From positions 112,693 through 176,692 of the IMG/VR virus record IMGVR_UViG_3300008107_000003: 64,000 nucleotides of DNA; one strand, written 5' to 3'. Below the pieces are notes generated by a model that saw only the letters and a program-made list of their open reading frames with translations, searched no databases and was not told where the DNA came from. Both the position numbers and the translations under genes were made by a program. Positions within the stretch are counted from its first letter, which is position 1, and each line of letters begins with the position of its first letter. Positions 16,275 to 54,929 of this stretch are shown here, in pieces. This stretch comes from a virus.

Positions 16275-16292
16275 TTTGTTAATATCCTACTA

Positions 16293-17825: not shown

Positions 17826-17847
17826 TGTTATTCTCGTTCCTCCATAT

Positions 17848-17855: not shown

Positions 17856-17863
17856 ACTTAAAT

Positions 17864-21418: not shown

Positions 21419-24400
21419 TTATTCTTCATCTAGACCAAAATCACCAAATACATTACCAGTGCCTAATAATAAAGTTGAATTTGGTAATTCTACTGTAGCA
21501 GCAATTACTTCAGGGTCTCTATAACCATAACCACCATCAACAAGATTGACCGATGATACACCTACTAATGCTTTTAATTGTCCATCAAATCCACCAGTTG
21601 AAGTTACAACAACTTCTGGTCTAGATGTGTATCCAGATCCACCAGCACTAATTTGTGTTTCTGAAATTAGTCCCTTAGAAATTACTGCCGTTAATACTGC
21701 AGATTTACCATATACAGGTCCATCATAATTGTATGTCACGAGAGAATTTGAAGATTCAATAACAGCAACTGTTCTGTCTTCTGTCTCACCCTCAATTGAT
21801 AAAATATCATCAGTTTCAACTTCAGGAACTACAACATCTTGTACAACGTCAGCATCAGAACCAATATATGCAAATCCAATAAATTGACTTCCAGTTCTAG
21901 GAACTTCAGTGAAATTAATTCTAGAACCACTTAAATCATAACCTTCTCCAGCTTTTTGGATGACACCATTCATGGAAACAATGATATTATTATCAGGTTT
22001 TGTTAATGCAGAAGATCCCTCTGTAACTGTTAATGAGTAGAAAGAATTATTTCGCTTAAGGTTAAAGCTAGATCTTAATGAATCAAATTCAAACGAGATA
22101 TCATCTAAAATTCTAAGCTTACCTAAGTAAGTTCCAACGAAACTGGAACCGAATTGAGGAGCTTCGTAGAATGTAATTTTATCACTAAATGTAATGTAAG
22201 AAATGCCTGGTTGTTGTAAAATTCCATTAACAAATATTAATACATAACCTTCAGTATTTGGGAAGTATTGTATTCCATTATTATATGTTAAATCAAATGT
22301 TGTTTGAACTCCATCAAAACCACGGAAATACCTATCTACTTTACCAAGAACCTGGGTAGTTTTACTGTTATATGAAACATAACCACCACTAGATGTAATC
22401 CTACAATAATCATTAAAATTGCCCACTACTGAAGTTAAGAATAATTGTTTTGTTGAACCAACTAAAACAACCTTATTAATTGTTGCATATGAATATTGAT
22501 TATTATATACTTCTTCTAGAGATACAATGGTTGCTTTTCCAATTACATTTTGAGTTGTAGTATTTTTATTTGCAATCAATGCTCCCTTATCAAAAGTTGT
22601 ATATGTTATAGTTGAAGGAACATTTGCATAATCAGTAAGAATACTGATGTATAAATCAACTAAAGTATTGATGGTGCTTCTAACAGTAGCACAAGAATTA
22701 ATATTATATGCTGTTGGATAAGCATCATCATATAACACTTCATCATTAAATACTTGATCAACTGCTGCATAATAATTTGCTAACTCATGTCTAGCATTTT
22801 GATAGGATGTTGGTACTGGAATATTATTAATTACATAAGGTAGTAATGTTTTTAGATATGTTAAACCTGCAATACTTTGCGATTCTTCACCAGCAATTCC
22901 ATTAGTAATGAAAGTGCCAGTCACTGCATCATAATAATATAATGCACTATTCACAACTTTACTATTTCCACCGTATCTTACGTTATGAGCGATTGCATCA
23001 ATCCAGTATTTAATATCTCTTTCACACTTGACTTCATTTGTTGACCAAGTACCTACTGTCTCTGTAGGAACACTAGATGTATTTCCTGCATTAAGAGCAG
23101 TTGTCATAATCGCGGTAAGAGTAGTAATTGCACTTTGAACTTGTGTGCATGAAGATGAGTTTTGGTTTGAACCTGTTGTAGGATCTGCAGAAATTGTTAA
23201 ATCCTGAACAGGAGTTAATCCTGTATATGTTCCAGTTGGTAAAGTATTAGTAATCGCTGCCTTCATCAAATCTCTTGCATAATTAAATGCTGCAACAGAT
23301 TGCGTTACTTCTCCCGCTAAACCATTAGTTAGAAGGGTTGTAGCGTTGCTAAAGTAGTATAAAGTATTAGTTCTAGTATTTTGATTTCCTCCATCATACA
23401 GGTCATTAGCAACCCCTTTGATGAAGTATTCTAGATCTCTCTTACACTTGTTTTCACCTGTTGTCCAAGTTCCAACATTTCTCTTTGGTAGATTAATTAG
23501 ACTACCATCTGTTAAAATGCCAGTAAGAATTGCAGTTAATGATGTAATAGCACTTTGGACGTTCGAACATGAATTTGTGTTAGTATTTGAACCTGTTGAA
23601 GGATCTGCGGTAATTGTTAAATCTGTAGTTGGTAAGTTGTTTGTTATAGCAAGTTTGCATAGATCTCTAACTTGATTAAATGCATAAATTGACTGAGTTA
23701 GTTCTCCTACTAATCCATTAGATAATAATCCACCCGTTGCTTGATCAAAGTATGCAATAGTTGCATCATAGATATTTGCATTACCACCATCATAAAGATC
23801 ATTAGCAATCGCATCAATTACATAACCAAGATCTCTACGACACTTAGTTTGATCATTATTGGGGAAAACAAATGTTGGATAGGCAGCAATTAAATTATTG
23901 ATGGTAGTATCAATAATATACTGTCTATTTTTCTTGATTAGAGTTCCAGCATCTTTAAATCTATTTACCGAAGAAGATGGTAACCAATAATCTTGTGATG
24001 TTGGTGTACCAGGATACATAAAGTCTGGATACGTTGCCTTAATATAACCAGTAGTTTCCTCAATGATATAATCACTGTTTGCATAAATTAAATTACTAGC
24101 ATCCTTAAATCTACTTACAGATGAAGAAGGAGAATAATCACTTTGCGATGCTGGGGTTCCTGGGAACTCAAAGTCTGGATATTGACTCTTAATATATCCA
24201 CTAACTTCTTTTGCAATAAAATCTTTATTTGAGATTAAAAGATTTGATGCATCAATATGTGTTCCATCAATACCGATTTCAGTATTTGGTGAGTTGATAG
24301 GCAATACGGTATTTTGTGTGTCAGTATGATAGAACTCAACTCTTCTTGATAGTTTAGTAACAGTTCCATAATTTATTGTAGGACTGTCACCAACTACAAT

Positions 24401-27400
24401 ACTTCTAACTGCAAATAGTCTACCAGCAGTAATTTCAACTAAATTATCTAGATTTAATACATTAGTAGTTGGATTCCAACTAGTAACATATGCATTTGCA
24501 ACTTCTTGAGATTGACTATCTAACAATTTGACAAAATCATTTTCTGCAAATGTTCCACTAATACCATTTTCAAAATAAGCTTCAGCATATTCAGTTTCAT
24601 TAATACCAACAATAGTGCTTTCATCTCCAGTCTTAGTTTCTGAAATTTCATCAATTAGTGAAATACTATCTCCAATATCAAAATCTGCTAATGATTGATC
24701 AACATCAACCGTCATTTTATTAATTTTTCCTGAAATAACAGTATCACCAGCTGTTAGTGATACTGTTTGACCCTCTTCAACTACTGTAATAATAACTTCA
24801 TTATCCGAAGAATTAACTGTTTGTGATTCATAAAAATAACCTTCGATATTTTCTGTGTCTAAAGTTAATTTTCCACCTGTGTTTGATATAATTGGGGCAC
24901 TATTATATAATGATTGATCGAGAGTTGCATCTGCACCAGAAGTTAATCCAGTAAAATATTCACCGTCCTCAATCTGAGAACTAATATCAATTAATTTTAA
25001 TCTATTAGTAGAACCGACTAATACGGTTGCAATAGAACCACTTACATTACCTTCAATGATATCATCAACATCAAATGCACCAGATGTAATTATAACATCC
25101 AAGAATAGTGTATTATTTACTACTTCATAACCATAAATTTCAGCAGTTCCAGATTGTGTAGTGTTTGTAATTTCTTCATTAGTGAACTCTGCCTCAACAG
25201 GACTATTTTCCACATCAAATTCTACAGGTATGCGAGTATAAATTTTCTTAACCTTTGCGGTTCTTTCTATTATTGAAGTAACTTCTGCAATACTACCGCT
25301 AGATTGACCATATACATAATTTCCAAGAGTTATTCCACCAATAACAGGATTTGGTAGTATACGAGTTCCATAATTAGGAGATGGTAGGGAAACACCATAA
25401 GTTTTTGTGACATTTAATGCCAAATACTGTGGAGATGATAATGTTGAAGTTAATATTAAAGTTTCCGCAGTAACTTTAGTTGTTGGACCAGCACTAACCG
25501 AGATATTTGGATCTGTATATGCATAGAATGTTGTCAATGGTGAAGGAGATACAAGTGTTTCATTAATTGCTGAAATTGTATAATCTCTAGCTTTGTTGTA
25601 TGCAGCATTAGTAGCAGTAACATTTTTGTATATGAATGATGTTACTGCAGTTCCTGACGAATTTAAATATGCTGATACATAATTCACTATTCCAGAATTT
25701 CCGTTAGTTAATAAATCATAAACTAAAGCATCAACATAATCATCGAGTGCTGCTTTCGCGTTTGTAATTTCACTTGCAGATAAATTTAAAGTTGTATAAG
25801 TATTGGTAATAAATTTATGTGTTTCAGATACTATATACTCCTTATTATAAAGAGCAAGTTTAGAAGCATCTTGATAGTTTTGTCCTGCTGGTCTCAAGAA
25901 AGCAATCATAATATCGTATAAAGTCGCAATAGCAGACTTAACATTCGCACATCCACCAACATCATTTGTAATTGTATAATCTCTTACTGGATAACTTATT
26001 GGTGTTACAGTTTGATATTGTGCTGTATAAATTTCATTATTAATTACTTTTTGTGCCAACTCTTTAATTTTTTGTAAAGTTACAATCGTAGGTAGTAACT
26101 CATTTTTGACTGAAGTAATTGATACTCCATCAGCAAGATAGAATTTTAATCCATCAATAGTATAACCTTGTCCTCCAGTCAATAGATCTAAAATTACTGC
26201 ATCGATTAGCAGTTTCATATCTCTTTCACACTTAGATTGACCAGCAGCCCCGCTGGGGAATGTTAATGCATTATATTGAACATTATTTAACGTATATTTA
26301 AATTGACTGATTGTATATGCAACTGCTTCTTTAGCAATAAAATCTCTATTGAACCAGAGTAAATTGCAAGCATCTCTATATCTTTGTGCTGTAGGAGCAA
26401 GAACATCATTAATAACACCCCATAGATAATCAATTCTTGAAGCAATAGCATCTGCATCAGATTCAATGTTAGTACCTAAGGTACTAATAGGTCTTTCTAA
26501 AGTAAATTGAGCATCATAATCAACTAATGTATTCAGTACAGCTTTTTTGCAAAGATCTCTAACAAAGAAGTGTGCATGTAAACTTTGTAGAAGTTGACCA
26601 ACTCCAAATTGCTGTGCTTCTCCTGGTTGATAAAGATAACGAATTTGCTCGTTAGATGAAATATATGCTTTTGCAGCAGAAATTGAATAATAATCTCCAC
26701 CAGAAGATAAATCTTGTGCAACTGCAGTAATTAATAATTGCAAATCTCTTCTGCAAGTACTTGTTCCAGATAGGTTATTGCCAACATCTCCTGGTATTTG
26801 GAAATCTTCATAATAATATTTTAATTCATTCGATGCTTCTTCTGAAATAAACAATGAATTTTTCAAGATAACATCTGCAGCTTCTCTGTATGAATTTAAA
26901 GAACTATCAAATGCATCAGTGTAAACAATATTCTGAGCATTGATTACTTGCTTTGCCAGAATTGGAACAGTGATTTTTTCAGATACTTCTGCTGTAGTGT
27001 AACTAGTTGGTAAAATGATATTTGAGTTGTTAGTACCGTTAAAATTAAACAATACTAATGTATACGAGTCTTGAACAAACTCAGAAGAAGGTACTGCAAA
27101 ATTATTAGTATATCTTGCATTTGTTGAAATGCGAAGATCATCAATGTAACCAGTAAATCCTGTAGAAACGTTTTGGTATGAGTTGCCAATAGTCAAAGGT
27201 CTATTTGCGTAAGTGCGAGTATCGGAGAATGAAGTCGCAACACCAACACCGTTTACATAAATTTGAACTTGAGTGTTATTTTTAACAACTGCAACATGTG
27301 ACCAACTATTGAGTGAAGCTGTAGCGGTGGTGGTCCAATCTGTAGCATTATATCTAACAGTAATTGTGCCAGTAGAATTTCTTAATATAGTTAATGCACC

Positions 27401-30400
27401 TGCATCAGATCCACTATTTCTAAAGTCAAGGAACGTCTGAGTTGCCGCTGTAGTTGGATAAATCCAACATTCAGTTGTCCAATTTCCAGATCCAAGATTA
27501 AATTTTTCAGTATCATTAATATATACCCAATCACTAGAACCTAAGGTTCTTAATGATGCACTACCAAATTTAAAGAATGTAGTATTTAAACGAGATGTAG
27601 ATCCATTGACATTAATTTTCCAGTTAGAAATAGTTTCCCCAAGTGTAAATGAACCTGTAATTGGTCCTGTATAAATTGTTCTAACTGAAGGATCACTATT
27701 TAATAGTGTAGTCTCTGCACCAGAAGTTAATCCATAAATTTTGGATGATCCTCCGATTACTGGGAAGTATGTTAATCCGCTAATATTTTTATATGAAAGT
27801 TTGCTACTATATAAAGTTTCTCCTTCTGTAAAATTGCCTGTTTTACCATTTACTGATAGTTTGATAGATGTGATAGTTTCATCCATTTCAAAATTGTTAG
27901 CATTTAATGCTGTATATTCAATTACATTATCTTCAATTGATTGATATTCAATAAAGTTTGTATTTACAGAAACAGTATCATCATTAATATCTACTAACTT
28001 AGCAGAAGATTCGCTAATATCATCAACTACAACGTTTGGATTTTCTGGATCGACAATTCTATTAAATACTAATCCATTAAATGTTGTTCCAGAATTAATT
28101 TGTAATGGTGCGCCATCATTAACTGGAATTCCAGTTACAGGATCTCTGTATGCCCCAAGGGCAGTAATTTTTACAATTTGTCCACTGCTCTTTCCATAGA
28201 TATAATCACCACTAACAAGAGCAAATAATCCATTTGGATTTTGAGGTGTTCCTGTAATTTTACTTAATACAAGGCGATCATCAATTTGTCTAAATGATAT
28301 TGGTAATCCTGTAGTGTTTAAACATGGTTTATTAACAACAATTTCAGTGAAGCTAATAACCTCAACTACTTTTGTATCTTCATCAATTCCAGGTCCAGAA
28401 ACTTCAGCACCGACAACAATTAAAGGTCTTGTAGGTGGATAAGATACATTAGGTAAAGTTTCTAATCCATTTGCTAATCCATTAGTTAGGATTGCCATAG
28501 ATGTAGCAATTGCTGATGCTTGTGATGCACATGATGGATTTGTATCATCATCTGGTACTCCTAGGTTGGGGAATGGAGCACCTACAGGTTGTGAAATTGG
28601 AGCACTATCAGTATAATACTTACCACTCTGCATAACAAAATCTAAATTGCCAGATCCTGATGGAACGGATGTTGTTAATTGTACTTTTGTGCTATCTATA
28701 ATTTTAAATACCTTGGTATTATTTGGAATTCCAGTTCCAGTAACTGTCATTCCTTCAATTACATTAACGGTACTTTGATCAACTAGTGTAATTGTTGAAG
28801 TACCATTTCTAATAACATTTAATTTTACTTTCCAACTACGCATTGCAGCAATAGCAAGATTTCTTGCATAATTGAATGCATCAATAGTTTCTTCTAATTG
28901 ATTGTTAATATGAACAAGAGTTGATCCTCTATAATATGCCTCAGTAGATTCAATAATTCTATAATTTCCACCATACTCTAAATCGTCAGCAATTGCAGAA
29001 ATTACATATCCAATATCTCTTGCACAAGTTTGATCACTTACAGGAATTACTAAGTCTGGATATTTTGCTTTCACATATCCTAAAGCTTCTTGAGCAATAA
29101 AGGTAGAATTTAATCTAAGACCATTAGCAGCATCTGCATTAACACCATTTTGTCCAGTTACAATACCTGTAGTGGTTGAAGATGGAAGTTTAATAGTAGT
29201 TGAACCAAATCCTTGCTGTGTAGTTCCATTTTGTGCAATATAAGTGATTGGTGTTGTACCATTAATTACACAAGGATCTAAAGCAAAAATAGTTACGTTA
29301 CTGTCTTCAACAAGAGCATCCTTACCATTTAGATTTAATACAGTTTCATCCTTGGTGAAAATAGTCGATGGATTTGTAACATCTGACCAATTACCAGGAT
29401 TTCTTAGTGGAAGAGAACTTAGATTTGCTTGCTGAATACAAGTTGTTAAAATTGTTACTAGAGTAGAAAGTGAATTTCTTACGTCTGTGCAACCAAAAGG
29501 ATTGGTATTTGAAGAATTTCCTTGTTCTGGTGAAGGATCTGCAATAATACTTAGATCTTTAACTGTTAATTGATTATTTGCAGCTTGACCTGCCCAATAA
29601 GCAACTTTTTGGAAACCGTAAATACTCTGTACTTCTTCTCCAACTAATCCATTTGCAAGAGGACTACCATCAGCAGTAAAGTAATACTTAGTATTATCCC
29701 AAATATTTGAATTACCGCCACTAGAAATATCTGCTGCTAAAGCAGTTGTAATATAACCCATGTCTCTCTTGCACTTCAATTCTCCAGGAGAATAAGGAGA
29801 ATTACTAATAATTGTTCCAGGTAGTCCATTCAAGTTGCCATTTGTAAGAGCAGTAGTTAGATACAATGACAATGTAGTAATTGTACTTCTAACATTAGCA
29901 CATGAAGTTGCACTAGTATTTGATCCTGTCGCAGGATCAGCAGTGATATTAAGATCCTTAAATCCTAACTGATTAGTAACAGCTTGGATCATTAGATCTC
30001 TAGCTTGATTAAATGCATAGACTGATTGAGTTTGCTCACCTAATACACCATTAGTAATTAATGCACCCTGAGATGTAAAGTATGCCTTAATAGCAGTGAT
30101 AGTATTGATATTGTTACCATCGTATAAATCTTGAGAAATAGCATCTACAATATAACCAATATCTCTCTTACATTTTGCTTTTGCTGCAAGCACTGATGGA
30201 CTTTGTAGTTCTGGTAATGCAGTAAGTGTTCCCGCTTGTAAAGTGCTTGTCAAAATTAATACTAAAGTACTAATTGTTGATTGTACATCAGTACATGCAT
30301 TTGGATTTCCAGATTGCAAATTAGATTCTAATACGTCCCCAACTCCTTCTACAGCTGGACCTGCAGAAATTGAAAGATCTTTATTATACAGTTGATTAGT

Positions 30401-36400: not shown

Positions 36401-39400
36401 TACATCTAGAGAAATTAGAGAATTTTTAAAGTAATTAGATGTTGTTTGAGTTCCAATATATTCCCAAGTTATAGTGCCATCAGCAGCAGTACCTGATACA
36501 TGTGTTGGAGCAGTAGATCCTGATGTTCCAGATACTGTAGAGCGATATACTAGTCCAGTAGTAGTATTCTTAACATACTGATCTGCCGAATAAGATGTAT
36601 TACCAGTCCAATTTGTTACACTGTATAATTCATTAATTAAAATATAATAAATTCCTTCAGCAAAATCCTTAAATCTTGCAGCATCATCATTTGGAATTTT
36701 TAGAGTAAATGTTCCTGCAGTACCAACTCCAGGAGTTACTGTTGTTGTTGCAGAAGTGGTTGTTAAACTCCAAAATACGGTTGATTGATTTGCAACTTCA
36801 TATACTCTTTCTCCTGCAACAAATAGACCATTGTAATTTTCAACAACTAGTGTCCTTGTTCCAGAGTTCCAAGAAGTAACTACAGCGGTCGATCCGCTGG
36901 TAGCACCTTTTACCTTGTTACCAACAGTAAAGTCACCAGTTCCACCTGCTTGGAAATTTAGTTGCGTTTTAAAACTATAAAGTCTATATTCTTTAATTTC
37001 ATTTACATCATTAATATTATCTGAAACTAACTCTGATAACTCAGTTATAGTTGTTTGATCACTAAAATTAGTTGCATCAGTATTATATGCTACGTACACA
37101 TACTTATTTACAGTATCTACTTTTGTAATAACTGCATTCTGAGTTTTTAATCCAGTTGCATATACCTTTTCAGAAATAGTTGCACCTGGAGTAAAGTTTG
37201 CAGATTGATTTAATGTAAATCTCTTAACATTTCTAAATTTGGTTGGAATAGTATTTCTAATATAAAATTTACTACCTTTCTTACAATTAACTTTTAACTT
37301 AATACCACCTGGGGTAGGAATAGTAGCAGTTCTAGATGCCCAAGTATTTACTGATGATGAGCAAGTTACATAGTCTGATTGTAAATTTGAATTTAATTCA
37401 TTAAAGTCAAGAATAGTTGCGTTATCAACTCCAGGAATATAATCCTGTATATCAATTGAAGTATCTTGAACTGTGGATTGAGACCACGCAGAAGCACTAC
37501 TGTAAATATAATTGTAGGTATAACTTACAGTAGTTACTGTAGCAGTTCCACTAGGTCCAGTAATAGTCATTCCTGGATAGATTATTGCGCTAGGTGAAGT
37601 TAATGTAAGTGTTAACACTGCTCCAACACCAAATCCCGATAAACTATACGCTGACACTGCAGCTGATCCACCTGTATATGTAATAGTTTGGTTGTTGGCA
37701 AAGGATCCAGAAACAATAGTTGCAACAATATTTGCAAAAGTACTGTTGTAATTACCTAATTTATTTGCTTCTCTATTTTTATCAATTTTAATTAAAATTC
37801 CTTCTTTTGGTACAATAATTCCAGAGGAAAATTGATTGACTGTTGCTGTTACTTGTTGTCCAGTTAATGATGATCCAGTATATCTTGCATATGGAGAAAG
37901 TCTAAATTCATCCACATATCCATTTAGAGGTTGAGTTGCTCCATTAGCAGATCCGATATAAATTGGATTTGGAGTCGATACAGTAGTTGCAGTAGATGAG
38001 TTAATAATTCTAACACCATTTAGATATACATAATAATTTAAATTTTCTTTAACTAATGCAATATGATGCCATGTATCAGATGTAAATGCGTTGGATGAAG
38101 AATTGCCTAAATTTTCGGCACTTCCTGTTCCTCTAAGTTGTAAATTAATAACTCCTGTTGCACGAGTATATCTTAGAGTAATATGGTTTGTAGATCCAAC
38201 ATTACCACATGAGAAAAGAACTGGAGTAGTGCCTCCTGTAGATCCAGATCTGAAAAATCCCTCCAGAGTAAAATTGGTATTTGACATTAAATTGCCAATC
38301 GGCGTTGATGCTGCAGGAATTGAGAATGCATCTGTAGAACCACTTGGAATGTAAAGAGATGCAGTTCCATGCTTAAATTCTGCAGTACTAATTGTAGATG
38401 CTCCTCCGAAGGTAACACCGTTTCTCTTATTGAAACTTGAGTCTACTACAGAAGTGGAACCATTTACACCATCAAAATGATATAGTATGAAAGTATCTGA
38501 ATTATAAGCACTATATCCAGATACTAAAGTATCTCCCGATGCATCTCCATGAACAGATGTTGGATAGAATGAAAATCCTTTTGTTGTAGAGCTATTAGCA
38601 TTTTCCGAAGCAAATAATTTACTATTTGAAACTAAATCTCCATCATAACTCAATTTAATTTGATATGAATATACTTCACTATCTGTAGTAACACTTGTTA
38701 AAATTTGTATTTGTCCAAAAATATCAATATTTGATGAAACATATCTTGTCTCTACTGCTGCAACATCCGTACATGAGAATGCTTTATGCCATCTTAAAGT
38801 TATAGTATCATATCCTGTATTGGGATATTCTATTTCATTTGCATTAATAGACATTACTGCAAATTGAGATGCTCCACTGTAATTATAAGTGATGATAATA
38901 TCATCAAATTCATTAATTCTAAGGGATACATCACTGACATCACTAACACAAGTAATATCCTTTATGAAATGTAAATCAATTGCTCGTGTACTTTCATTCC
39001 AACTTGCCTTGCCATAAAGTATATTAGTTGGAGCATTTGGAGTTATAATATCCAAAACTTCTCCAGTAAAATGAATATTGTCTTTGCTATCTATAGCAAT
39101 AGATGTAATTTTTTCACTATATCCACCAAGAGAAATTTTTCTTCTCTTAATAACATCTCCATCATTTCTTAAGAATACAAGATAAGCATCCTGTGGAGAT
39201 ACTGAATTAGTATTTGTATATCCTGCAACGAATAAATCACCATTTTTATCTGCAGCAATTCCAGTGATTGTATCTTGCCTAATAGCACCGCTAACACCAG
39301 ATATTTCTTTTTGCCAAGTTAATGTGCATACAAGACCAGTAGAATTTTCAGTGTACTTTGCAATCACAATATCTGGATTAAATTGTGTTGTAGTATTTGG

Positions 39401-42400
39401 TTTTGTTTGACCAACTACAAAAATTTCTTGTCCTTTAACAATAATTTTTTGGAAATCAGCATAACGTAAACCTTGACCTGGATATGGAGATGATAAACTC
39501 TTTTGCCAAATTAAAGTGCCACTATCATTGTATTTTGCCATGATAGCAACAATATTTCCATTAGAATCTGCTGCCTTACCACAAATATAATAATATTTTT
39601 CTGAAGTTCCAAATATATCATTAATTACGACATTATTATATTGTGTCCAGTGTTTCGCAAAGAAATAATTAGTTTTCTTGTAAATCTGTGGGTGTGAAAT
39701 TATTAATCTAGGATCAAAAGTATATGAATTACCAGAATTAATAATATTAACTTTTTCAATTACTCCTGTAGATTGCAATACTGGTTCTACAATTGCATCA
39801 GAACCATCTCCAGAAATTTCAATAGATGGAGGAATGTCAGAATTATAACCAGTACCAGGTTGTACAATGTCTAATTTTTCAATACCATCAATAACTCTCA
39901 CTTTATAATCCTTTTGATTTTGGATCATAATAGGTGTAGTATCAACAAAAACAGTATCTCCAACTTGTAAATTATGTTCTAAATTAGTTGAAGTACCACC
40001 ATCATTTTCAGTACAAGTAATTGTTCCGATTGGAGTATCTCCATCAGATCCACCCAAAGCAAAAGTATATGCACTGATCGTTTTTCCTTCCACTTTAGAA
40101 ATACGAGCAGAAACTCCATACCCATCAGTATCAGTTTCATCAAATACTAATTTGTCTCCTACCTTGTAATTATTTCCAGCATTTTCAATTACATAACCAT
40201 CAATTTTTGCGGATTCAAATTTAGTAGTAGTATCAATTTCAATATCTACTCTAGATTCTTCTCTAACTGATGGGAAATAGTCATATAAACCAATTACATC
40301 TTCTTGTCTATAAGATGGAATTGCATCAGATAATTCTGCAATAGTGTCTCCAAGAAGTGCATTTGATAAACCAAAAGTAATTCTATCACCAGGTTCTAAG
40401 ATACCTATATCAGATAGATATACCCAATTAACACCTCCATCATTATAACCAGATCTTACTGTTGGTTGACTAGCACCAGAAATTGCAGTATTAGAACATC
40501 TATATAATTTACCAGTATTAAATCCGTCTCCATCCGAATATACTATTTGCCCTGCGGTGTATTGTGTATTTGGTTCCCAACGACCTGCCTCTTTAGTATA
40601 TGCATAATATCTTAAAGATATAGTATTTTCGATTGGATCATATAAATTAACTATTGCTTTAATTTGTCTACTTAATGTAGTACCAATTGTTCTCGTTGAA
40701 GTAATTATACTATTTTCAGTAAAATTACCAACAACATTAGCTAATTCATATGCAATATTAATAAATCCACTTTGATCACTATCTTCTACTTCAAATGTTA
40801 AAAGTTCCCCATCTTCAGTAATATAATCCCCAACAATACCAAATGTTGTTCTGTCTAAATCAGTATCAACATTTTCAAAAGGATCCCTAAATCTTACAAC
40901 GTCTAGTGGGAGATATGCTTGAATTGAATCTGCAGATAAATTCCAAGCATCAACTTGAGAATAATATTTTGGACCAATAACATATGGGAAAGTAGGAATA
41001 CCTTGCAAATTATCTAGATTTGTAGTATCTTCTACTATAGTTACAAAGTATGCATATGTTCCTTCTGGGAATTCTGGGGTTTTGCAAAATCTTCCGTTAT
41101 ATTCATCTAAGGTTCCCAAATTATAAGAGAATTCATAATCTTGGATAAATGATCCAGCTGGATATTCCGAGAGAAGTGGTCCGTCAATTCTTTCTGGAGA
41201 AGAAGATGTTAGGCTATCTAGCAACTTGTAACTAGATACCATTCTTTCAATAATACTCTTATCATCTGTAGGGTCGGAATAACCATATGGTCCATAAATC
41301 GGACTACCATCATAAGCCCAACCTAAGATAGGAGAATGTACTAAACCTTCAATTTTTTCTGCTACTTGTCCATTTCTAATTTCTAAGTTATCTCCTAAAA
41401 CATATCTCAATTGTCTTGGGTCAGACAAATGAGCATAATCTCCACCAAATTGATTATTTAATCCAGAGAACACATATCCTCTAGATGCATCTAGTTGCTT
41501 TTCAAATGCATAGTTGAATATCCATTCAAATACCTTACATTCAAATCTTGCACCAGATCCAACAGATTTTAGAACAATTTGAGTTGATCCTTGATTATAA
41601 TTAATACCTCTGTTTAAAATTTCAATATTCAGAACTTTACCAATAGAATCTCCAGAAGTCGAAATAATTGCTCTTGCCTTAGCACCAAAACCATCTCCAT
41701 AAATTTCAACTTCTGGTGGAGAAGTATATCCAATACCAGCATTAATAACCGCAATAGATACAATTCTACCATTATTAACAATAGCTAATGCTTCAGCACC
41801 TCTTCCACTAGAAACTTCAATGGTTGGTGCTGCAATATATCCTTCTCCATAATTAGTGACATTAATATTTTGAATTGGTCCCCTAACTGAAGCATATGCT
41901 GAAGCACCATCGCCACCGCCACCAGAAATACTAATAGTTGGAGTTGAAGTATAACCTTCTCCACCAAAATCAACAAGAATTTTACTTAGTTTATTGTTAG
42001 TAATAACTGCAGTAGCGGATGCACCTGATCCACCTCCTCCAACGATTGAAATTAGAGGTTGGGAAGTATATCCATCTCCAGCATTTTCAACAATAATTTC
42101 CGTAATAGAACCATTTACAACAACATCAGCAGCTGCGCCTGATCCACCACCGCCAGTAAATACAATATTTGGTGGATTTCCTGCATCATAACCACCACCA
42201 TTATCCAAAATTTTAATATCACTTAGTTTACCATATTTTAATGATTCGCTGGATTTATAGTTCCAAACAGATACTCCATTAATCCAAGAACCTACTGCTC
42301 CTGGAGCAGTATCAGTCTTAACTGAAATTGTGTTCTGTGTTCTTGGGAATCTCTTTAAATATCTTTGATTACCTGGAAGAAGTGCCGTACCAACAAAGGG

Positions 42401-45400
42401 TCCAATCTTATAACTTGGAATTCCTGTAGAAGCTACATAAACATAATTATCATTAAAATATACGTTTTGTACGTTGCTTGTATAAAGTTGAACAGAATTG
42501 TTAATTGAAATGTTATCGCTCTTACCTTTATTAAGATCAATTGATACTAATAGTTTTCCAACAGGTAATGTATTAGGATCTCCACTTGCAGGTAATGTAT
42601 ATGTAAATGTAGTATCTGAAATAGATGTTACAGTATATGTCCCATTATATAAAATAGGAGCTGCTCCATAAATTGTAACTTGATCACCAACTAAAAGACC
42701 ATGTTTTCTAGTTGTTGTAACTTTTGCTGTTGTATACCCAATACCTTCAGGAACAATACTAGATGCTTCAATTAGTTTTTTAACATTATATAACCATGTA
42801 TTAATAAGAGTATCTGTTGTTGTTGCTCCAATTTTAGTGATATTTAATTTATCCCCAGAAAGATAATATCTTCCAGTATCAACAAGTTCAGTACTACCAG
42901 CCTCAACAATTCCATAAATTTTCAAAACTACTTCTTGTTGAGTTCCTTTATTTGCATAAACAAAGAAATTAGATTGCACAGAAGAAGCAGCTTGATGTTC
43001 ATCTGCTAATCCATTTAATCCTCTGGTACATTCTAAAAATTGATTTAGTGTTTTTTCTTTATATGAAATTAATTCTCCATTGATTAGAATTTGACCATTC
43101 TTTTCGGGCCATCCAATAGTAGAATCTACAGTAATTACACTATCTGTAGTAGTAATTTTTTCACTAAGTTTGGTAGTGTATGGAACTACAAAATTTCCAA
43201 CTAAAGATTCTTTAGAAATTACAAGTTCAATGACACTACTATCAACTACATTAATATTAATATAATTTTCTACTAATGCTGCAGCATATTGAACATTAGT
43301 ATCGATTGGATCCTCAAGTTGTTCAATTAGAGCATCTTTTAAATTTTCTATCTGACCAGATATCAAATTTACACGAACAACAGTATCCACAGACCATGTA
43401 GCTGCAGATGGTTTAATAATCTGGTCTTTTGGATAAGAAACATCAATTTTTTCATTAAAAAGAATTCTGAAAAAATATGAAATAGAATTTTTTGTACCTT
43501 TAGAAGAATAAAACTCTTTGATAGTTTTAATAAACTGTGGTACACTAATTGTTGAAAAGTCTAATGTTGGGAAATATGGAGCAAATTCCTCAATAAATTT
43601 TTGAATAATTCTTCTATAGAATAAAGTATCTAAACTTTTTACTTCAGTACCTGCTTTATGAGTTGCTGCTAAAGATTGTTTTTCAGATTTAAATAACGCA
43701 TTTCCTTTTGCATCATAATCATATATGCCACTGACGCCTCTCTTACAATTTACCAATTTTGATTTAGTGTACTCTGTACCCTTCTCAATAACTCTAAAAC
43801 CTGTAATTTCATCAAAACCAATATCACAAGATGCCTTTGCAAATGGAGGCGCTGCGATTACGACAGTTGGTGGATTGAATGGATCATATCCTTCACCAAA
43901 ATTAGTAATATTAATATCTGTAATTACACCATTAAATACTGTTGCTTCTGCGGTTGCATTTACTAAAGTTTTATCTCGTAGAGCAAATCCATTATCTCCA
44001 ATTCTTGTATCTACAATATACACACTTGGAGGAACTTCATATCCAGATCCTCCACTTAATAGTTGTATTTGCGTTACTTGACCATCAGAGTTGACAATAA
44101 CATCAAGTACTTGAGCACCTACAGGATCAATAATTTCAACTCTTGGTGGATTTGTATCACTATATTCTCTACCACCAGATACAACGTTTACTCCAATAAC
44201 TTCGCCTTCAGTATTTAAAGTTGTGGTTAAAATTGCTTTTACTCCAGAAGAAGTTCCTGGAGCATCAACATAAACTTTTGGTGGTGTAGTATAGTTAGCA
44301 CCTGAAGAACTTAAAGTTACAGATGTAATAGATCCATTAGTAACAGTAACTGTATCAACTCTAGCTCCACCAGGATTTACAAAAGATAATCTAGGAATAT
44401 TAATGTAACCACTTCCACTTTCGGTAATTAGAATATTGCTAACTTTTCCTTCATTATTTACTATTGCTTTTGCTTTTGCGGCAATTCCATTTTCAGGAGC
44501 TTCAATTACAATTTTTGGGGGGTTTGTAGATTCATATCCTTGCCCTGGATCGAGTAAATTAATGGATTTTACTCCACCAATCAATGCCAGTGCTGTTCCA
44601 CCTTTTCCTGAAGAAGATTCTATTGTAACTTTAGGTGTAAATTTAGACGTATAACCAGATCCGCCAGAAGTAACATTAATATTTTCTAGTTCACCAAAAT
44701 CATTAATTACTGAAATTGCAGAAGCACCACTTCCTGTAGATTGAATTAATTGCTCACTTTCAACATAGGTCATCCAAAAATCAGCACCAGCTGCAGGAGC
44801 TTGCTTAAAGATAATAGTAGATCCTTGGATAGTAAATCCATCCTCTTCCTGAGAATATGCAGTTAAAAGCTTTTTCCCAACAGATACGTTTGCAAAAATA
44901 TCACTTACAGGAACATAAGGTTGATTATTTAATTTTAATTCAAACAAAGTTTTGACACCATTAAATTGAGATTTAATGTCATCTATAAACACAACTTCAT
45001 CTAAACTATATCCTTTCAAATAGAAAATAGAACATGTGGAAGAATCATCATTTAATTGTCTTGCTCTCGGTGCGGTTGCAAAAACAATAGTATCACCTAC
45101 AACTGTAAAATCAATTCCTGGCTTCAAATATTCATTATATACTTTTACAATTAAATGATATGCAGATGTTGGGGTAACTGTTAAACCAGAAGAAACTAAA
45201 TTAAAAATTGTTGTGGTGCCATCATACAAGAAAAATGCATTAGCACATTCTTGCCACTTATTTCTATATTCAGTTAAACTTAAAGAATCTGATAGTACTA
45301 CTTTTGGTGATTTTTGCACACCGCTATAATAAATGACTTCATCATCAATTAATACACTTCCATCAGTATCAATGAATGAATCTGTACTTTGTACTACAAT

Positions 45401-45643
45401 ATCAGTAGAATTACTTGCCGCATCTTCAAGTAAAATAGAAGTATCTTGAAGTGATTGTTTAGTATAAAAATCAACATCAAAATATTCAACTAGTTGGTTG
45501 AGTATATTATATGATAGTCCCGTTTTCTCTTGAGATTTATAATAAGTCTCAAAGAATTTTTCAAACAGAGGATAATTTTCTCTGATGAAAGATGGTAACT
45601 GTGAATTGATACTAAAAGATGCTTTATTTAATTCCTTTGACAT
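21419..45643 (-). CDS. Giant modular baseplate/tail protein in the gp7 position (8074 aa)
   Basis: One open reading frame of 24,225 bp. It occupies the T4 gene 7 slot (25-6-[7]-8), so it is probably the cyanophage gp7-like wedge/fibre protein; T4 gp7 is 1032 aa. Visible modules, in order: N-terminal FIRENYPLFEKFFETYYKSQ (about 18-37); beta units with NG..PG patterns (120-300); GGSGYT repeats (315-595 and 1145-1345); FIKTIKEFYSSKGTKNSISY (about 705); YHYH motif DGSPIYGPYGY (about 1445); carbohydrate-binding-like TQYTAGQIVYSDGDGF (about 1690); propeller-like region (2015-2370); LamG-like domains (2375-2590 and 6008-6200); gp8-like segment (3361-3491); seven 42-aa helical repeats (about 4192-4488); arrays of cysteine-pair modules (about 4490-5420 and 7130-7680); C-terminal VNGILQQPG beta units. 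It lies 12 bp after gp6. No frameshift or stop interrupts it. Confidence 0.85.
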   Translation of the reverse strand: MSKELNKASFSINSQLPSFIRENYPLFEKFFETYYKSQEKTGLSYNILNQLVEYFDVDFYTKQSLQDTSILLEDAASNSTDIVVQSTDSFIDTDGSVLIDDEVIYYSGVQKSPKVVLSDSLSLTEYRNKWQECANAFFLYDGTTTIFNLVSSGLTVTPTSAYHLIVKVYNEYLKPGIDFTVVGDTIVFATAPRARQLNDDSSTCSIFYLKGYSLDEVVFIDDIKSQFNGVKTLFELKLNNQPYVPVSDIFANVSVGKKLLTAYSQEEDGFTIQGSTIIFKQAPAAGADFWMTYVESEQLIQSTGSGASAISVINDFGELENINVTSGGSGYTSKFTPKVTIESSSGKGGTALALIGGVKSINLLDPGQGYESTNPPKIVIEAPENGIAAKAKAIVNNEGKVSNILITESGSGYINIPRLSFVNPGGARVDTVTVTNGSITSVTLSSSGANYTTPPKVYVDAPGTSSGVKAILTTTLNTEGEVIGVNVVSGGREYSDTNPPRVEIIDPVGAQVLDVIVNSDGQVTQIQLLSGGSGYEVPPSVYIVDTRIGDNGFALRDKTLVNATAEATVFNGVITDINITNFGEGYDPFNPPTVVIAAPPFAKASCDIGFDEITGFRVIEKGTEYTKSKLVNCKRGVSGIYDYDAKGNALFKSEKQSLAATHKAGTEVKSLDTLFYRRIIQKFIEEFAPYFPTLDFSTISVPQFIKTIKEFYSSKGTKNSISYFFRILFNEKIDVSYPKDQIIKPSAATWSVDTVVRVNLISGQIENLKDALIEQLEDPIDTNVQYAAALVENYININVVDSSVIELVISKESLVGNFVVPYTTKLSEKITTTDSVITVDSTIGWPEKNGQILINGELISYKEKTLNQFLECTRGLNGLADEHQAASSVQSNFFVYANKGTQQEVVLKIYGIVEAGSTELVDTGRYYLSGDKLNITKIGATTTDTLINTWLYNVKKLIEASSIVPEGIGYTTAKVTTTRKHGLLVGDQVTIYGAAPILYNGTYTVTSISDTTFTYTLPASGDPNTLPVGKLLVSIDLNKGKSDNISINNSVQLYTSNVQNVYFNDNYVYVASTGIPSYKIGPFVGTALLPGNQRYLKRFPRTQNTISVKTDTAPGAVGSWINGVSVWNYKSSESLKYGKLSDIKILDNGGGYDAGNPPNIVFTGGGGSGAAADVVVNGSITEIIVENAGDGYTSQPLISIVGGGGSGASATAVITNNKLSKILVDFGGEGYTSTPTISISGGGGDGASAYASVRGPIQNINVTNYGEGYIAAPTIEVSSGRGAEALAIVNNGRIVSIAVINAGIGYTSPPEVEIYGDGFGAKARAIISTSGDSIGKVLNIEILNRGINYNQGSTQIVLKSVGSGARFECKVFEWIFNYAFEKQLDASRGYVFSGLNNQFGGDYAHLSDPRQLRYVLGDNLEIRNGQVAEKIEGLVHSPILGWAYDGSPIYGPYGYSDPTDDKSIIERMVSSYKLLDSLTSSSPERIDGPLLSEYPAGSFIQDYEFSYNLGTLDEYNGRFCKTPEFPEGTYAYFVTIVEDTTNLDNLQGIPTFPYVIGPKYYSQVDAWNLSADSIQAYLPLDVVRFRDPFENVDTDLDRTTFGIVGDYITEDGELLTFEVEDSDQSGFINIAYELANVVGNFTENSIITSTRTIGTTLSRQIKAIVNLYDPIENTISLRYYAYTKEAGRWEPNTQYTAGQIVYSDGDGFNTGKLYRCSNTAISGASQPTVRSGYNDGGVNWVYLSDIGILEPGDRITFGLSNALLGDTIAELSDAIPSYRQEDVIGLYDYFPSVREESRVDIEIDTTTKFESAKIDGYVIENAGNNYKVGDKLVFDETDTDGYGVSARISKVEGKTISAYTFALGGSDGDTPIGTITCTENDGGTSTNLEHNLQVGDTVFVDTTPIMIQNQKDYKVRVIDGIEKLDIVQPGTGYNSDIPPSIEISGDGSDAIVEPVLQSTGVIEKVNIINSGNSYTFDPRLIISHPQIYKKTNYFFAKHWTQYNNVVINDIFGTSEKYYYICGKAADSNGNIVAIMAKYNDSGTLIWQKSLSSPYPGQGLRYADFQKIIVKGQEIFVVGQTKPNTTTQFNPDIVIAKYTENSTGLVCTLTWQKEISGVSGAIRQDTITGIAADKNGDLFVAGYTNTNSVSPQDAYLVFLRNDGDVIKRRKISLGGYSEKITSIAIDSKDNIHFTGEVLDIITPNAPTNILYGKASWNESTRAIDLHFIKDITCVSDVSDVSLRINEFDDIIITYNYSGASQFAVMSINANEIEYPNTGYDTITLRWHKAFSCTDVAAVETRYVSSNIDIFGQIQILTSVTTDSEVYSYQIKLSYDGDLVSNSKLFASENANSSTTKGFSFYPTSVHGDASGDTLVSGYSAYNSDTFILYHFDGVNGSTSVVDSSFNKRNGVTFGGASTISTAEFKHGTASLYIPSGSTDAFSIPAASTPIGNLMSNTNFTLEGFFRSGSTGGTTPVLFSCGNVGSTNHITLRYTRATGVINLQLRGTGSAENLGNSSSNAFTSDTWHHIALVKENLNYYVYLNGVRIINSSTATTVSTPNPIYIGSANGATQPLNGYVDEFRLSPYARYTGSSLTGQQVTATVNQFSSGIIVPKEGILIKIDKNREANKLGNYNSTFANIVATIVSGSFANNQTITYTGGSAAVSAYSLSGFGVGAVLTLTLTSPSAIIYPGMTITGPSGTATVTTVSYTYNYIYSSASAWSQSTVQDTSIDIQDYIPGVDNATILDFNELNSNLQSDYVTCSSSVNTWASRTATIPTPGGIKLKVNCKKGSKFYIRNTIPTKFRNVKRFTLNQSANFTPGATISEKVYATGLKTQNAVITKVDTVNKYVYVAYNTDATNFSDQTTITELSELVSDNINDVNEIKEYRLYSFKTQLNFQAGGTGDFTVGNKVKGATSGSTAVVTSWNSGTRTLVVENYNGLFVAGERVYEVANQSTVFWSLTTTSATTTVTPGVGTAGTFTLKIPNDDAARFKDFAEGIYYILINELYSVTNWTGNTSYSADQYVKNTTTGLVYRSTVSGTSGSTAPTHVSGTAADGTITWEYIGTQTTSNYFKNSLISLDVTQISLNTSPAGTEKTTLTISGLGLVKNITVITTVDKIIRIIPSGISATNQVYVGTQTAHYLNRDNIIFIEGNGSVGSPSEYDGSFSVNDIISSRSFTFNLPADATSNPAAASGIIIYAKSPVLNFIYGHQYNFDLSHPSNLGYFLSFSRDSLNRIEYSFNNIIRIGTPGIDAAGSSPKVTFKVDNLASSITYYFDPSHLGDESPVTENAYAIVRSTPYAGKFKVYSTSGGTVTSGDYKFSIQLPFEPEGPAIAENTSYVTTSTTADGPIADIEFVSPGGFYKKLPVVTDISAVRTIERIQIENQGTEYEPGVYTKIPIIGDGVGGFIELEVTLEGEPGNETGKITSASLTSAGKGYTFGSIDIEGIDGILGPQLQGGGGKINVIIPPRGSGSSLYLKGTNIGKIKKLKNNNFGFDYSHDYTLKPEINFPVNLQLLNTSILRSINVTDPGSGYTVAPAVIITGGGGVGAEAEAVIKNGRISAIEIKNPGTGYSSAPDVALKSSFTFVVNVDLNYLQFSSPHGIPNGAEISFAAVEGTTTIGTPELPLSSFGRLSTTQTYYAIAGSENSLDADQLKIALTPQGAEIGDAITLINSGNGRLIIFTESFGGTAEAIVETARFLSDEYVYQGNSLSEQTAFGYVSKNNGWQTGPRLLKLENYSGEFIEGQKVTGLVSKSSGIIDNISRARGVLNINAVTQTSGKFADDTGKPSEIIQRLQDSYYYQNFSYAIKSKVVISKWRDSIKKNTHPAGFQVFGELVLDSVQETRKNDPSIEVTRSVSVGEIADLNTVESFAIVEPRYSEFDNSVVIFRSKRLTSSEQIITSTVQEFDDISSLFDGTRTAFPLTINGTNSIVSADKLLISLNGIVQAPGKAYTIVNGLQITEPDPDNPNQTITKTVQGIVFSDPPQPATTVKYVQIEIDKVFQSEIWIENIAGVIPDLGRTIVGQTSKVRASVISSESVLPSVSFDGSSSQVVDILSNTITIGKHSFVTGTEVRYTVPVGVIPLDPIPAGNITLYVIRVDESRIKLANTYANALGGVGIDITTLGTNRLGKTTDHTITNLNGITKLTVSNYVPSTQTGYDEFIELEEIRASSTGLIATISRIQNLNHPSIGRYRNASELIVANKDEVVKEAFADQQSYIFANYPDFVYPGAPTNSYRFKDGYRLIQANRQEIIDTASARIQTQFPTFTFGADPGSTVGIEPLVSNRYLDAKNLILANRAEILDRSLAEIAVQYPDFYYPGDVQSDTHSRFNDAYRLIQQNRDEIADRSIAEIATQYPDFVFPGDQTTDAQSRFNDAYRLIQQNKDEILDKSLAQVAIEHPDFVFPGDPQSNSSSRFNDAYRLIQQNRDEIADRSLAEIAVQFEDFYFPGDTRSDTHSRFNDAYRLIQLNKTEIVLTAWNNMLNVYPAAAATELKCKRDIGYFVDAVSLDVFLEGNKYTRQFVLQYFNNGVPIINGLVGEELASVEAFNQARTLMKRALTNQLTIKDLTITPDPDTGSNTNTNSCANVRTLIDNLSLIATTALGSGSISSLPSENAGQYNVNELKCRRDIGHFIDAVSLDIFLEGNKYSRKFVEQYFSATTTPITNGIQDEEDQAIVAFNMARDMMKSAITNQLYVKDLSLTPDPLIGSNQSPQSCANVRTSIDNLTNLITTTLIARDLNLLPIENAGSYQTNELKCRRDLGYLVDAVSLDVFMLGNKYTRKFAQQYFVNGQPLTNGLLGEYAQSISAFNQARNMMKKAVTNQLYVKDLTLTADSATNSNVSIDSCANVQSAIDTLIGVITTVFGTGGIESLPTENSGSYVAGKSKCLRDIKYFIDAISLDVFLENNKYSRKFVLQYFNKGTPISNGLVGETAQSVVSFNMARDMMKKAVTNQLYTKDLTLTEDPLTQSNVSPNSCANVRTAIDTLTAIVTTAISTSSVATLPSEGTSSFNTGENKCRRDIGYIVDAIASDIGIGGNASTITATKAYFNTAGTTLISNGVNGEVDQSVVAFNMARDMMKKAATNQLYNKDLSISAGPAVEGVGDVLESNLQSGNPNACTDVQSTISTLVLILTSTLQAGTLTALPELQSPSVLAAKAKCKRDIGYIVDAISQDLYDGNNINTITAIKAYFTSQGALITNGVLGEQTQSVYAFNQARDLMIQAVTNQLGFKDLNITADPATGSNTSATSCANVRSTITTLSLYLTTALTNGNLNGLPGTIISNSPYSPGELKCKRDMGYITTALAADISSGGNSNIWDNTKYYFTADGSPLANGLVGEEVQSIYGFQKVAYWAGQAANNQLTVKDLSIIADPSPEQGNSSNTNPFGCTDVRNSLSTLVTILTTCIQQANLSSLPLRNPGNWSDVTNPSTIFTKDETVLNLNGKDALVEDSNVTIFALDPCVINGTTPITYIAQNGTTQQGFGSTTIKLPSSTTTGIVTGQNGVNADAANGLRLNSTFIAQEALGYVKAKYPDLVIPVSDQTCARDIGYVISAIADDLEYGGNYRIIESTEAYYRGSTLVHINNQLEETIDAFNYARNLAIAAMRSWKVKLNVIRNGTSTITLVDQSTVNVIEGMTVTGTGIPNNTKVFKIIDSTKVQLTTSVPSGSGNLDFVMQSGKYYTDSAPISQPVGAPFPNLGVPDDDTNPSCASQASAIATSMAILTNGLANGLETLPNVSYPPTRPLIVVGAEVSGPGIDEDTKVVEVISFTEIVVNKPCLNTTGLPISFRQIDDRLVLSKITGTPQNPNGLFALVSGDYIYGKSSGQIVKITALGAYRDPVTGIPVNDGAPLQINSGTTFNGLVFNRIVDPENPNVVVDDISESSAKLVDINDDTVSVNTNFIEYQSIEDNVIEYTALNANNFEMDETITSIKLSVNGKTGNFTEGETLYSSKLSYKNISGLTYFPVIGGSSKIYGLTSGAETTLLNSDPSVRTIYTGPITGSFTLGETISNWKINVNGSTSRLNTTFFKFGSASLRTLGSSDWVYINDTEKFNLGSGNWTTECWIYPTTAATQTFLDFRNSGSDAGALTILRNSTGTITVRYNATDWTTTATASLNSWSHVAVVKNNTQVQIYVNGVGVATSFSDTRTYANRPLTIGNSYQNVSTGFTGYIDDLRISTNARYTNNFAVPSSEFVQDSYTLVLFNFNGTNNSNIILPTSYTTAEVSEKITVPILAKQVINAQNIVYTDAFDSSLNSYREAADVILKNSLFISEEASNELKYYYEDFQIPGDVGNNLSGTSTCRRDLQLLITAVAQDLSSGGDYYSISAAKAYISSNEQIRYLYQPGEAQQFGVGQLLQSLHAHFFVRDLCKKAVLNTLVDYDAQFTLERPISTLGTNIESDADAIASRIDYLWGVINDVLAPTAQRYRDACNLLWFNRDFIAKEAVAYTISQFKYTLNNVQYNALTFPSGAAGQSKCERDMKLLIDAVILDLLTGGQGYTIDGLKFYLADGVSITSVKNELLPTIVTLQKIKELAQKVINNEIYTAQYQTVTPISYPVRDYTITNDVGGCANVKSAIATLYDIMIAFLRPAGQNYQDASKLALYNKEYIVSETHKFITNTYTTLNLSASEITNAKAALDDYVDALVYDLLTNGNSGIVNYVSAYLNSSGTAVTSFIYKNVTATNAAYNKARDYTISAINETLVSPSPLTTFYAYTDPNISVSAGPTTKVTAETLILTSTLSSPQYLALNVTKTYGVSLPSPNYGTRILPNPVIGGITLGNYVYGQSSGSIAEVTSIIERTAKVKKIYTRIPVEFDVENSPVEAEFTNEEITNTTQSGTAEIYGYEVVNNTLFLDVIITSGAFDVDDIIEGNVSGSIATVLVGSTNRLKLIDISSQIEDGEYFTGLTSGADATLDQSLYNSAPIISNTGGKLTLDTENIEGYFYESQTVNSSDNEVIITVVEEGQTVSLTAGDTVISGKINKMTVDVDQSLADFDIGDSISLIDEISETKTGDESTIVGINETEYAEAYFENGISGTFAENDFVKLLDSQSQEVANAYVTSWNPTTNVLNLDNLVEITAGRLFAVRSIVVGDSPTINYGTVTKLSRRVEFYHTDTQNTVLPINSPNTEIGIDGTHIDASNLLISNKDFIAKEVSGYIKSQYPDFEFPGTPASQSDYSPSSSVSRFKDASNLIYANSDYIIEETTGYIKATYPDFMYPGTPTSQDYWLPSSSVNRFKDAGTLIKKNRQYIIDTTINNLIAAYPTFVFPNNDQTKCRRDLGYVIDAIANDLYDGGNANIYDATIAYFDQATGGLLSNGLVGELTQSIYAFNQVRDLCKLAITNNLPTTDLTITADPSTGSNTNTNSCSNVQSAITSLTAILTGILTDGSLINLPKRNVGTWTTGENKCKRDLEYFIKGVANDLYDGGNQNTRTNTLYYFSNATTLLTNGLAGEVTQSVAAFNYARDLMKAAITNTLPTGTYTGLTPVQDLTISADPTTGSNQNSSSCTQVQSAITTLTAIMTTALNAGNTSSVPTETVGTWSTNEVKCERDIKYWIDAIAHNVRYGGNSKVVNSALYYYDAVTGTFITNGIAGEESQSIAGLTYLKTLLPYVINNIPVPTSYQNARHELANYYAAVDQVFNDEVLYDDAYPTAYNINSCATVRSTINTLVDLYISILTDYANVPSTITYTTFDKGALIANKNTTTQNVIGKATIVSLEEVYNNQYSYATINKVVLVGSTKQLFLTSVVGNFNDYCRITSSGGYVSYNSKTTQVLGKVDRYFRGFDGVQTTFDLTYNNGIQYFPNTEGYVLIFVNGILQQPGISYITFSDKITFYEAPQFGSSFVGTYLGKLRILDDISFEFDSLRSSFNLKRNNSFYSLTVTEGSSALTKPDNNIIVSMNGVIQKAGEGYDLSGSRINFTEVPRTGSQFIGFAYIGSDADVVQDVVVPEVETDDILSIEGETEDRTVAVIESSNSLVTYNYDGPVYGKSAVLTAVISKGLISETQISAGGSGYTSRPEVVVTSTGGFDGQLKALVGVSSVNLVDGGYGYRDPEVIAATVELPNSTLLLGTGNVFGDFGLDEE
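22610..24265 (-). repeat. Second array of helical-repeat plus cysteine-pair modules in the giant gene
   Basis: Three helical units of the RFKDASNLIYANSDYIIEET type, each ending YPDFxxPG, are followed by three modules that begin KCRRDLGYVIDAIANDL, KCKRDLEYFIKGVANDL and KCERDIKYWIDAIAHNV. The first two of these contain SNTNTNSCSNVQSAI or SNQNSSSCTQVQSAI. This is a diverged copy of the array at 29390-33071. Confidence 0.85.
29390..32180 (-). repeat. Array of seven ~130-aa cysteine-pair modules in the giant gene
   Basis: Seven consecutive coding units of about 390-430 bp. Each starts KCxRDIGYxVDAxSxD, continues with an N-x-T or GNKYxRxF helix, then GLxGE...AFNxARxxMxxAxTNQL and KDLxIxxDPxTxSN, then SCANVRxxIxxL, and ends near LPxExxG. 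Each unit therefore carries two invariant cysteines about 85-95 residues apart. The first cysteine codons lie near 32164, 31772, 31380, 30990, 30600, 30175 and 29773. Confidence 0.88.
32180..33071 (-). repeat. Seven tandem ~42-aa helical repeats in the giant gene
   Basis: Coding units of about 129 bp with the consensus RFNDAYRLIQQNRDEIADRS, then AEIAxQYPDFxFPGDxxSDxxS. Units 3-6 are close to identical at the protein level; the first two and the last are diverged. The last unit runs directly into the first cysteine-pair module, and single copies precede other cysteine modules further downstream, so the two repeats form a composite building block. Confidence 0.88.
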
Positions 45644-54775: not shown

Positions 54776-54777
54776 GA

Positions 54778-54927: not shown

Positions 54928-54929
54928 CT

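Follow-up and report, generated by a model that had tools for sequence, protein, structure and literature searches.

What does a reading frame of 8074 codons encode when it lies in the baseplate gene cluster of a cyanophage, at the position that gene 7 holds in T4? The window analysed here is the whole stretch of 64,000 nucleotides, which forms the final 64 kb of an IMG/VR virus record of 176,692 bp, and the frame runs from 21419 to 45643 on its minus strand, as do all window features given below. The reading favoured here, with a probability of about 0.75 when any role for bilins is left out of it, is that the gene encodes a giant wedge protein at the gp7 position, anchored in the wedge, extended into an outer appendage, and carrying 14 domains homologous to phycobiliproteins. 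A preliminary description of the locus dwelt on the length and position of the gene and missed these domains, which are its most unusual content.

The frame and its relatives

The claim that the frame is uninterrupted is confirmed. It is a single ATG-initiated ORF of 8074 amino acids, with a G+C content by codon position (about 0.44/0.42/0.13) that is steady in every 800-codon block, whereas the other five frames contain 358-1022 stops across the same region, and, given the base composition, a stretch of this length would be free of stops with a probability of about 10^-287. A second contig of 68,760 bp, IMGVR_UViG_3300008108_000042, matches the window without a single difference along 27,001 bp, the whole ORF included. 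As a check by independent assembly the second contig bears out the frame, being base-identical with neither stop nor frameshift, though its reads may be the same as those of the window's record. An assembly artefact was rejected on the strength of this identical contig and of the existence of full-length homologues. The computed mass of the protein is 873 kDa, and six copies would total 5.2 MDa.

Homologues are widespread among cyanophages. A tblastn search with residues 1-800 retrieved 473 phage records, 294 of which cover at least 80% of the query, and the last 399 residues retrieved 305; the matches come almost entirely from phages of Synechococcus or Prochlorococcus. Annotated genomes place the homologue after gp25 and gp6 and ahead of gp9/YHYH/gp8, with checked frames of 5422 amino acids in S-CREM1, 6198 in S-ShM2, 6273 in S-CAM22, 6283 in QB2, 6483 in Syn19 (Syn19_088), 6603 in S-TIM4 (ORF_101) and 6817 in ACG-2014d, and the PHROG 701 profile has 6136 columns. 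The window's gene has the homologous N- and C-terminal regions of this Kyanoviridae group (phrog_701 and related families) in one frame downstream of gp6, and is best described as a baseplate or virion protein at the gp7 position. It shares with the giants of PHROG 701/19630/2885 (Syn19_088, ACG-2014d, S-TIM4 ORF_101) the place after gp6, a YHYH domain, GSGY repeats, terminal domains at about 46-53% identity and some phycobiliprotein-like units, of which the window's giant has 14 and each GenBank giant examined about 4-6. The homologue in Syn19 bears the label T4-GC969, and mass spectrometry of S-SM1 virions has detected a T4-GC969 product (PMC3037559).

The exceptional size stressed in the preliminary description is not borne out by a comparison of the ORFs downstream of gp6 in related records. 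The two ends share a single unbroken frame in 39 IMG/VR records, at lengths of 5355-8458 amino acids (median 6721), and the window's giant falls within this range; six of the 39 exceed 8074 amino acids, the longest at 8458, and the notion that it is the longest known phage protein was rejected. Because homologues occur throughout annotated relatives and IMG/VR records, the giant gene here is a trait of an already known family, and size alone is not news.

Gene order and modules

A homologue of gp6 (45656..47671; 671 amino acids; phrog_219, E 1.5e-202) lies directly upstream of the giant, preceded by a 144-residue protein (47671..48105) assigned to the gp25 position by size and by synteny with the annotated gp25 of relatives. 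The location between gp6 and the gp8 side holds, but there is no contact with gp8: a YHYH wedge protein of 1173 amino acids (17864..21385; phrog_708) intervenes, as in relatives, before the gp8 homologue (16293..17825; 510 amino acids; phrog_438).

Other genes of the cluster deserve brief mention. A structural protein of 2027 amino acids (2441-8524) begins with an Mtd_N-like region (PF18454, E 4e-12) and contains many of the GSGY repeats also seen in the giant. A DUF4815/VrlC-type protein of 2404 amino acids (9060-16274; phrog_358) makes a second giant in this cluster, and a 190-residue protein (48617-49189) occupies the place where relatives have an annotated PAAR-type protein.

The suggestion that the protein grew by addition of modules is supported by its composition. 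A conserved N-terminal region, delimited by alignment and repeat map (residues 1-740; 43424..45643), contains GSGY beta repeats at about residues 300-640 and is followed by a YHYH domain (residues 1400-1536; 41036..41446; PF14240, E 2e-28) and a LamG/ConA-like domain (residues 2446-2587; 37883..38308; PF13385, E 1.8e-18). A second LamG domain (residues 6035-6177; 27113..27541; PF13385, E 8.6e-22) lies among the phycobiliprotein-like arrays, and an SBBP repeat is also present. Self-comparison reveals repeats of about 43 and about 130 amino acids within residues 4190-7670, beyond which a conserved C-terminal domain (residues 7677-8050; 21494..22615) is shared at about 50% identity with 286 phage records.

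Relation to T4 gp7

T4 gp7 has 1032 amino acids, and the giant is eight times longer. When eight N-termini of the family were compared with T4 gp7 by hhalign, residues 708-737 of the giant (43433..43522) aligned with gp7 residues 731-760 (probability 73, E 3e-5), a stretch of 30 residues centred on the motif FYS(S/T)KG, which reads FYSSKGT here and is also picked up by PF23786 (Baseplate_wedge). Through the FYSxKG segment T4 gp7 independently matches phrog_26741, 2885 and 17744, the first two of which the giant matches as well. The N-terminal search proposed in the preliminary description gave a match that is short yet consistent. The Pfam models Gp7_helical, Gp7_5th and Gp7_6th, present in T4 gp7, were undetected in the giant at E 0.01. 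An AlphaFold2 model of residues 1-1100 (pLDDT 77, pTM 0.56) gave no convincing Foldseek match, the T4 gp7 chain ranking 22 with a probability of 0.03.

The likeness to T4 gp7 consists of the gene order gp6-X-(...)-gp8 and, tentatively, the FYSxKG helix segment, and the difference, besides length, of the absence of detectable domains V and VI and of the helical Pfam model. The proposal of a gp7-like N-terminus, made from sequence and synteny, stands as far as position and the 30-residue match go, but not for the Pfam domains of T4 gp7. It might be argued instead that the giant is an additional structural or fibre protein of cyanophages and that another gene, such as that of the YHYH protein, serves as gp7. 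The missing Pfam domains favour such an arrangement, as does the fact that in S-ShM2 and S-CAM22 a different neighbouring CDS is annotated gp7; the S-ShM2 product, however, matches only YHYH-type families and has no link to T4 gp7, whereas the giant shares the helix segment with T4 gp7 both in hhalign and through common PHROG profiles. Homologues of the giant bear the gp7 annotation in P-SSM4 and P-HM2, and in P-HM2 the annotated gp7 (4454 amino acids) lies immediately before gp8, and therefore no other candidate for gp7 exists between them. A giant that is not the equivalent of gp7 is accordingly judged improbable. By position and core motif the giant reads as gp7-like, which falls short of proof that it is gp7, and it is likely to be anchored in a gp7-like manner, with a long appendage on the outside. 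A gp7-like helix bundle in the first 740 residues or so would hold the protein in the wedge. The remainder would extend outwards, with phycobiliprotein-like domains, LamG domains and beta repeats as possible modules of the appendage near the side of host contact.

As a separate point of annotation, the S-ShM2 CDS labelled gp7 (23940-25661 of the locus excerpt) encodes a YHYH-domain protein, and the label looks wrong.

Phycobiliprotein-like domains

Phycobiliproteins are the coloured proteins with which the cyanobacterial hosts harvest light. Between residues of about 4190 and 7670 of the giant, a domain of phycobiliprotein type, both in sequence and in predicted fold, occurs 14 times. The Pfam Phycobilisome family PF00502 matches the second half of the protein at E 2.3e-14, a value that is the sum of weak matches, and no single unit passes the Pfam cut-off. 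Because single-unit Pfam scans were mostly empty, profile methods were used; phmmer searches of single unit sequences directly against the PDB likewise gave no useful match. A profile built solely from phage sequences, the alignment of 37 units, found C-phycocyanin alpha as its best PDB match (E 9.9e-9, chain residues 39-104); in all, 159 distinct sequences scored E 10 or lower, and the 60 matches listed were phycobiliproteins without exception. Compared by hhalign with phycocyanin alignments from cyanobacterial genomes, the same profile scored a probability of 95.6 (E 1.1e-8) for the alpha subunit and 93.6 (E 2.1e-7) for the beta subunit; the loci in these alignments, fetched with a beta-phycocyanin query, are real records.

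One unit, residues 7228-7399, was modelled with AlphaFold2 from phage rows and no templates (pLDDT 91, pTM 0.89). Every one of the 50 PDB matches listed by Foldseek for this model is a phycobiliprotein at a probability of 1.00, with TM scores up to 0.69 over about 155-165 columns, the full domain. The model is not wholly independent evidence, since AlphaFold was trained on phycobiliproteins. Significant sequence similarity is limited to helices B-E, about 65 residues, and the C-terminal half is matched by fold alone, in a predicted model with the globin-like fold of phycobiliproteins. The N-terminal X/Y helices of phycobiliproteins are absent from the units, which start at about phycocyanin residue 39.

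Both the weak Pfam scores of single units and the short span of sequence similarity could be taken to mean that an unrelated helical fold has converged on phycobiliproteins, its CxRD motif resembling theirs by chance. Convergence is nevertheless a very remote prospect, as two sequence methods agree at E of about 1e-8 with no other family among the 60 PDB matches listed, the order and spacing of the helices agree with phycobiliproteins, and the predicted fold matches over the whole domain. Profile comparison and predicted fold together show the units to be homologous to phycobiliproteins. They resemble C-phycocyanin and phycoerythrin in helices B-E by sequence, in the whole fold by model, in the Cys84-x-Arg-Asp87 motif and in a cysteine near the position of beta-Cys153/155; they differ in lacking the X/Y helices and in standing in tandem or nested arrays within one virion polypeptide, and their binding of bilin is only putative.

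The repeat units were absent from the plasmid collection searched. A literature search, with most subscription papers beyond its reach, found no account of such domains in cyanophages; the arrays are apparently undescribed, although PF00502 may be marked in proteins of this kind by automated domain databases.

Arrays of split units

Each unit consists of a helix-B part (b) and an E-to-H part (E), which were modelled by separate HMMs. The order in the window is bbbbbbbEEEEEEE, bE, bEbEbE, bbbEEE, which makes 14 b and 14 E parts in arrays of 7+7, 3+3 and four of 1+1. Seven helix-B-like segments of 43 amino acids, b1-b7, at a spacing of 129 nt (residues 4189-4492; 32168..33079), precede seven E-H units with the CxRD motif, E1-E7, delimited by HMM and repeat comparison (residues 4493-5415; 29399..32167). 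HMM matches then place one complete unit with an insert at residues 5497-5745 (28409..29155), three complete units at residues 6246-6745 (25409..26908), and the bbbEEE array, which includes the modelled unit, at residues 7128-7670 (22634..24262).

Elsewhere bbbEEE occurs in S-CAM3, S-RIM32 and S-RIM44 and bbbbEEEE in S-PM2, whereas the 7+7 array of the window's 8074-residue giant was unseen in the other phages examined. All six runs of at least three b parts are followed by an equal run of E parts, although the three S-CAM3/S-RIM arrays are probably orthologous. Such b^nE^n order would arise most simply if one whole domain had been inserted into another's b-E loop. Each E-H unit would be completed by one helix-B segment, probably in the nesting b(b(bE)E)E, which successive insertions into older domains would be expected to produce. 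Similarity among b and among E parts fits a nested pairing (r 0.55) better than a parallel one (r 0.09), and the parallel arrangement was set aside on this poorer fit; the nested pairing ranks 166th of 5040 pairings, and its advantage is suggestive. If nested, the arrays would be an unusual case of repeated domain-in-domain insertion.

The same units, in 3+3 and 4+4 arrays, occur in PHROG 4527/5342 proteins annotated 'short tail fibre' (S-PM2d088, ACG-2014i_028, S-RIM44_035), which differ from the giant in being a different gene at another place in the genome, often adjoining cpeT. ACG-2014f, a phage without CpeT, has degenerate units (180600-181700, 189500-190700) that keep CKRD/CARD, with two b segments and then two E parts at a distance of about 9 kb within a single frame of 3973 amino acids.

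Conserved cysteines and CpeT

At motif level the residues that bind bilin in phycobiliproteins, Cys84, Arg86 and Asp87, are kept as CxRD at the chromophore position in 13 of the 14 window units. The fetched loci yielded 182 distinct units, in which these positions hold Cys in 84%, Arg in 44% and Asp in 90% of cases. A second cysteine lies just before the last helix, about where beta-Cys153/155 lies, although the alignment of C132 with beta-Cys153 is not significant by sequence alone. CpeT is a T-type bilin lyase homologous to CpcT, the lyase for Cys153 of the beta subunit (PMC10452541).

A CpeT frame is present at 54585-55010 of the full record of the window's phage, in whose genome no Fe-bilin reductase was found. 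CpeT scores over the Pfam cut-off in all 18 other repeat-bearing records tested, giving 19/19 with the window's genome, as against none of seven genomes without repeats (P-SSM2, S-SSM7, Bellamy, S-CRM01, S-N03, P-SSP7, T4); ACG-2014f, with a few degenerate units and no CpeT, stands outside this tally. Fisher's test restricted to cyanomyoviruses, of which five are repeat-free, gives p 1e-4 uncorrected for shared ancestry. In ACG-2014e/h/i/j, S-CAM1/3/4, S-RIM32/44, Syn1, S-WAM2, S-RSM4, S-H9-1/2 and several Sf phages the short-tail-fibre gene that bears the repeats has cpeT upstream of it, no more than about 5 kb away; where annotation was read, one to three genes and some tRNAs separate the two. 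cpeT lies away from that gene in the window's phage, S-PM2, S-WAM1, P-HM2 and others.

With so few repeat-free cyanomyoviruses in the comparison and phylogeny uncontrolled, CpeT and the repeats might co-occur only through a single gain in one phage clade, and the tail-fibre/cpeT synteny might likewise be inherited; such an origin, with no functional link, is credible at somewhat under even odds. Against it, the association spans different genera and hosts, holds though the domain occupies two different genes (the gp7-type giant and the short-tail-fibre type), and fits the case of ACG-2014f, which is without CpeT and whose units are all degenerate.

For the units themselves a purely structural role has about an even chance: a stable helical module captured from the host would have been copied repeatedly to serve as a stiff spacer or an adhesion unit, its two cysteines disulphide-bonded, and CpeT would act only on host phycoerythrin, as is usually assumed. 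The units do share their protein with the ordinary fibre modules LamG, YHYH and GSGY, cpeT does not adjoin the giant in the window's phage, and family-wide retention of Arg86 is low. C132 also never occurs without C41, which fits a disulphide: among 129 units 98 have both, 20 have C41 only, none has C132 only and 11 have neither. Yet those 20 units with C41 only speak against a role in disulphides alone, the conservation of D87 argues against a purely structural one, and CpeT tracks the domain in the genomes tested, among them P-HM2 of the phycobilisome-less Prochlorococcus. The CpeT association favours bilin over disulphide, and it is tentatively proposed that the conserved cysteines carry bilins attached by the phage CpeT, which would make the virion appendage a chromoprotein, the least certain step of the model.

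Light-dependent adsorption

Adsorption is light-dependent for several cyanomyoviruses, and Prochlorococcus, the host genus of P-HM2, is without phycobilisomes (PMC2984593). Darkness prevents adsorption of P-HM2 but not infection by the podovirus P-SSP7 (PMC7112961). The domain and cpeT occur together in S-PM2 and in P-HM2, and P-SSP7 has neither. S-PM2 is reportedly among the phages with light-dependent adsorption described by Jia et al. 2010, a study cited in PMC9229316 and PMC7112961. With two positives and one negative, the correspondence between domain, cpeT and light-dependent adsorption is a lead only, and the domains may be relevant to the attachment of some cyanophages in light alone. 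That the baseplate and tail-fibre proteins are viral chromoproteins, loaded by CpeT with covalent bilins and acting as a light sensor on the particle that underlies light-dependent adsorption, is on present evidence doubtful. If true, the chromoprotein reading would give phage CpeT a substrate, even in phages of phycobilisome-less Prochlorococcus, and would link three puzzles, namely the target of CpeT, the bilin genes in phages of phycobilisome-less hosts and attachment only in light, each of which is testable with the existing isolates S-PM2, P-HM2 and Syn19.

Some further observations concern the cpeT loci. The tail-fibre gene with phycobiliprotein-like units that lies just downstream of cpeT in many cyanomyoviruses, as at 5425-18624 of one locus excerpt, is 10-12 kb long. 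The CpeT of the window's phage is divergent, with about 160 amino acids (54543-55025 of the full record, minus strand), and lies about 80 kb from the giant. Near it (4028-6100, minus strand, of an excerpt in which cpeT occupies 9544-10026) is an ORF of 690 amino acids with a signal-peptide-like start and Thr/Ser repeats, which looks like an outer-membrane or adhesin-like protein.
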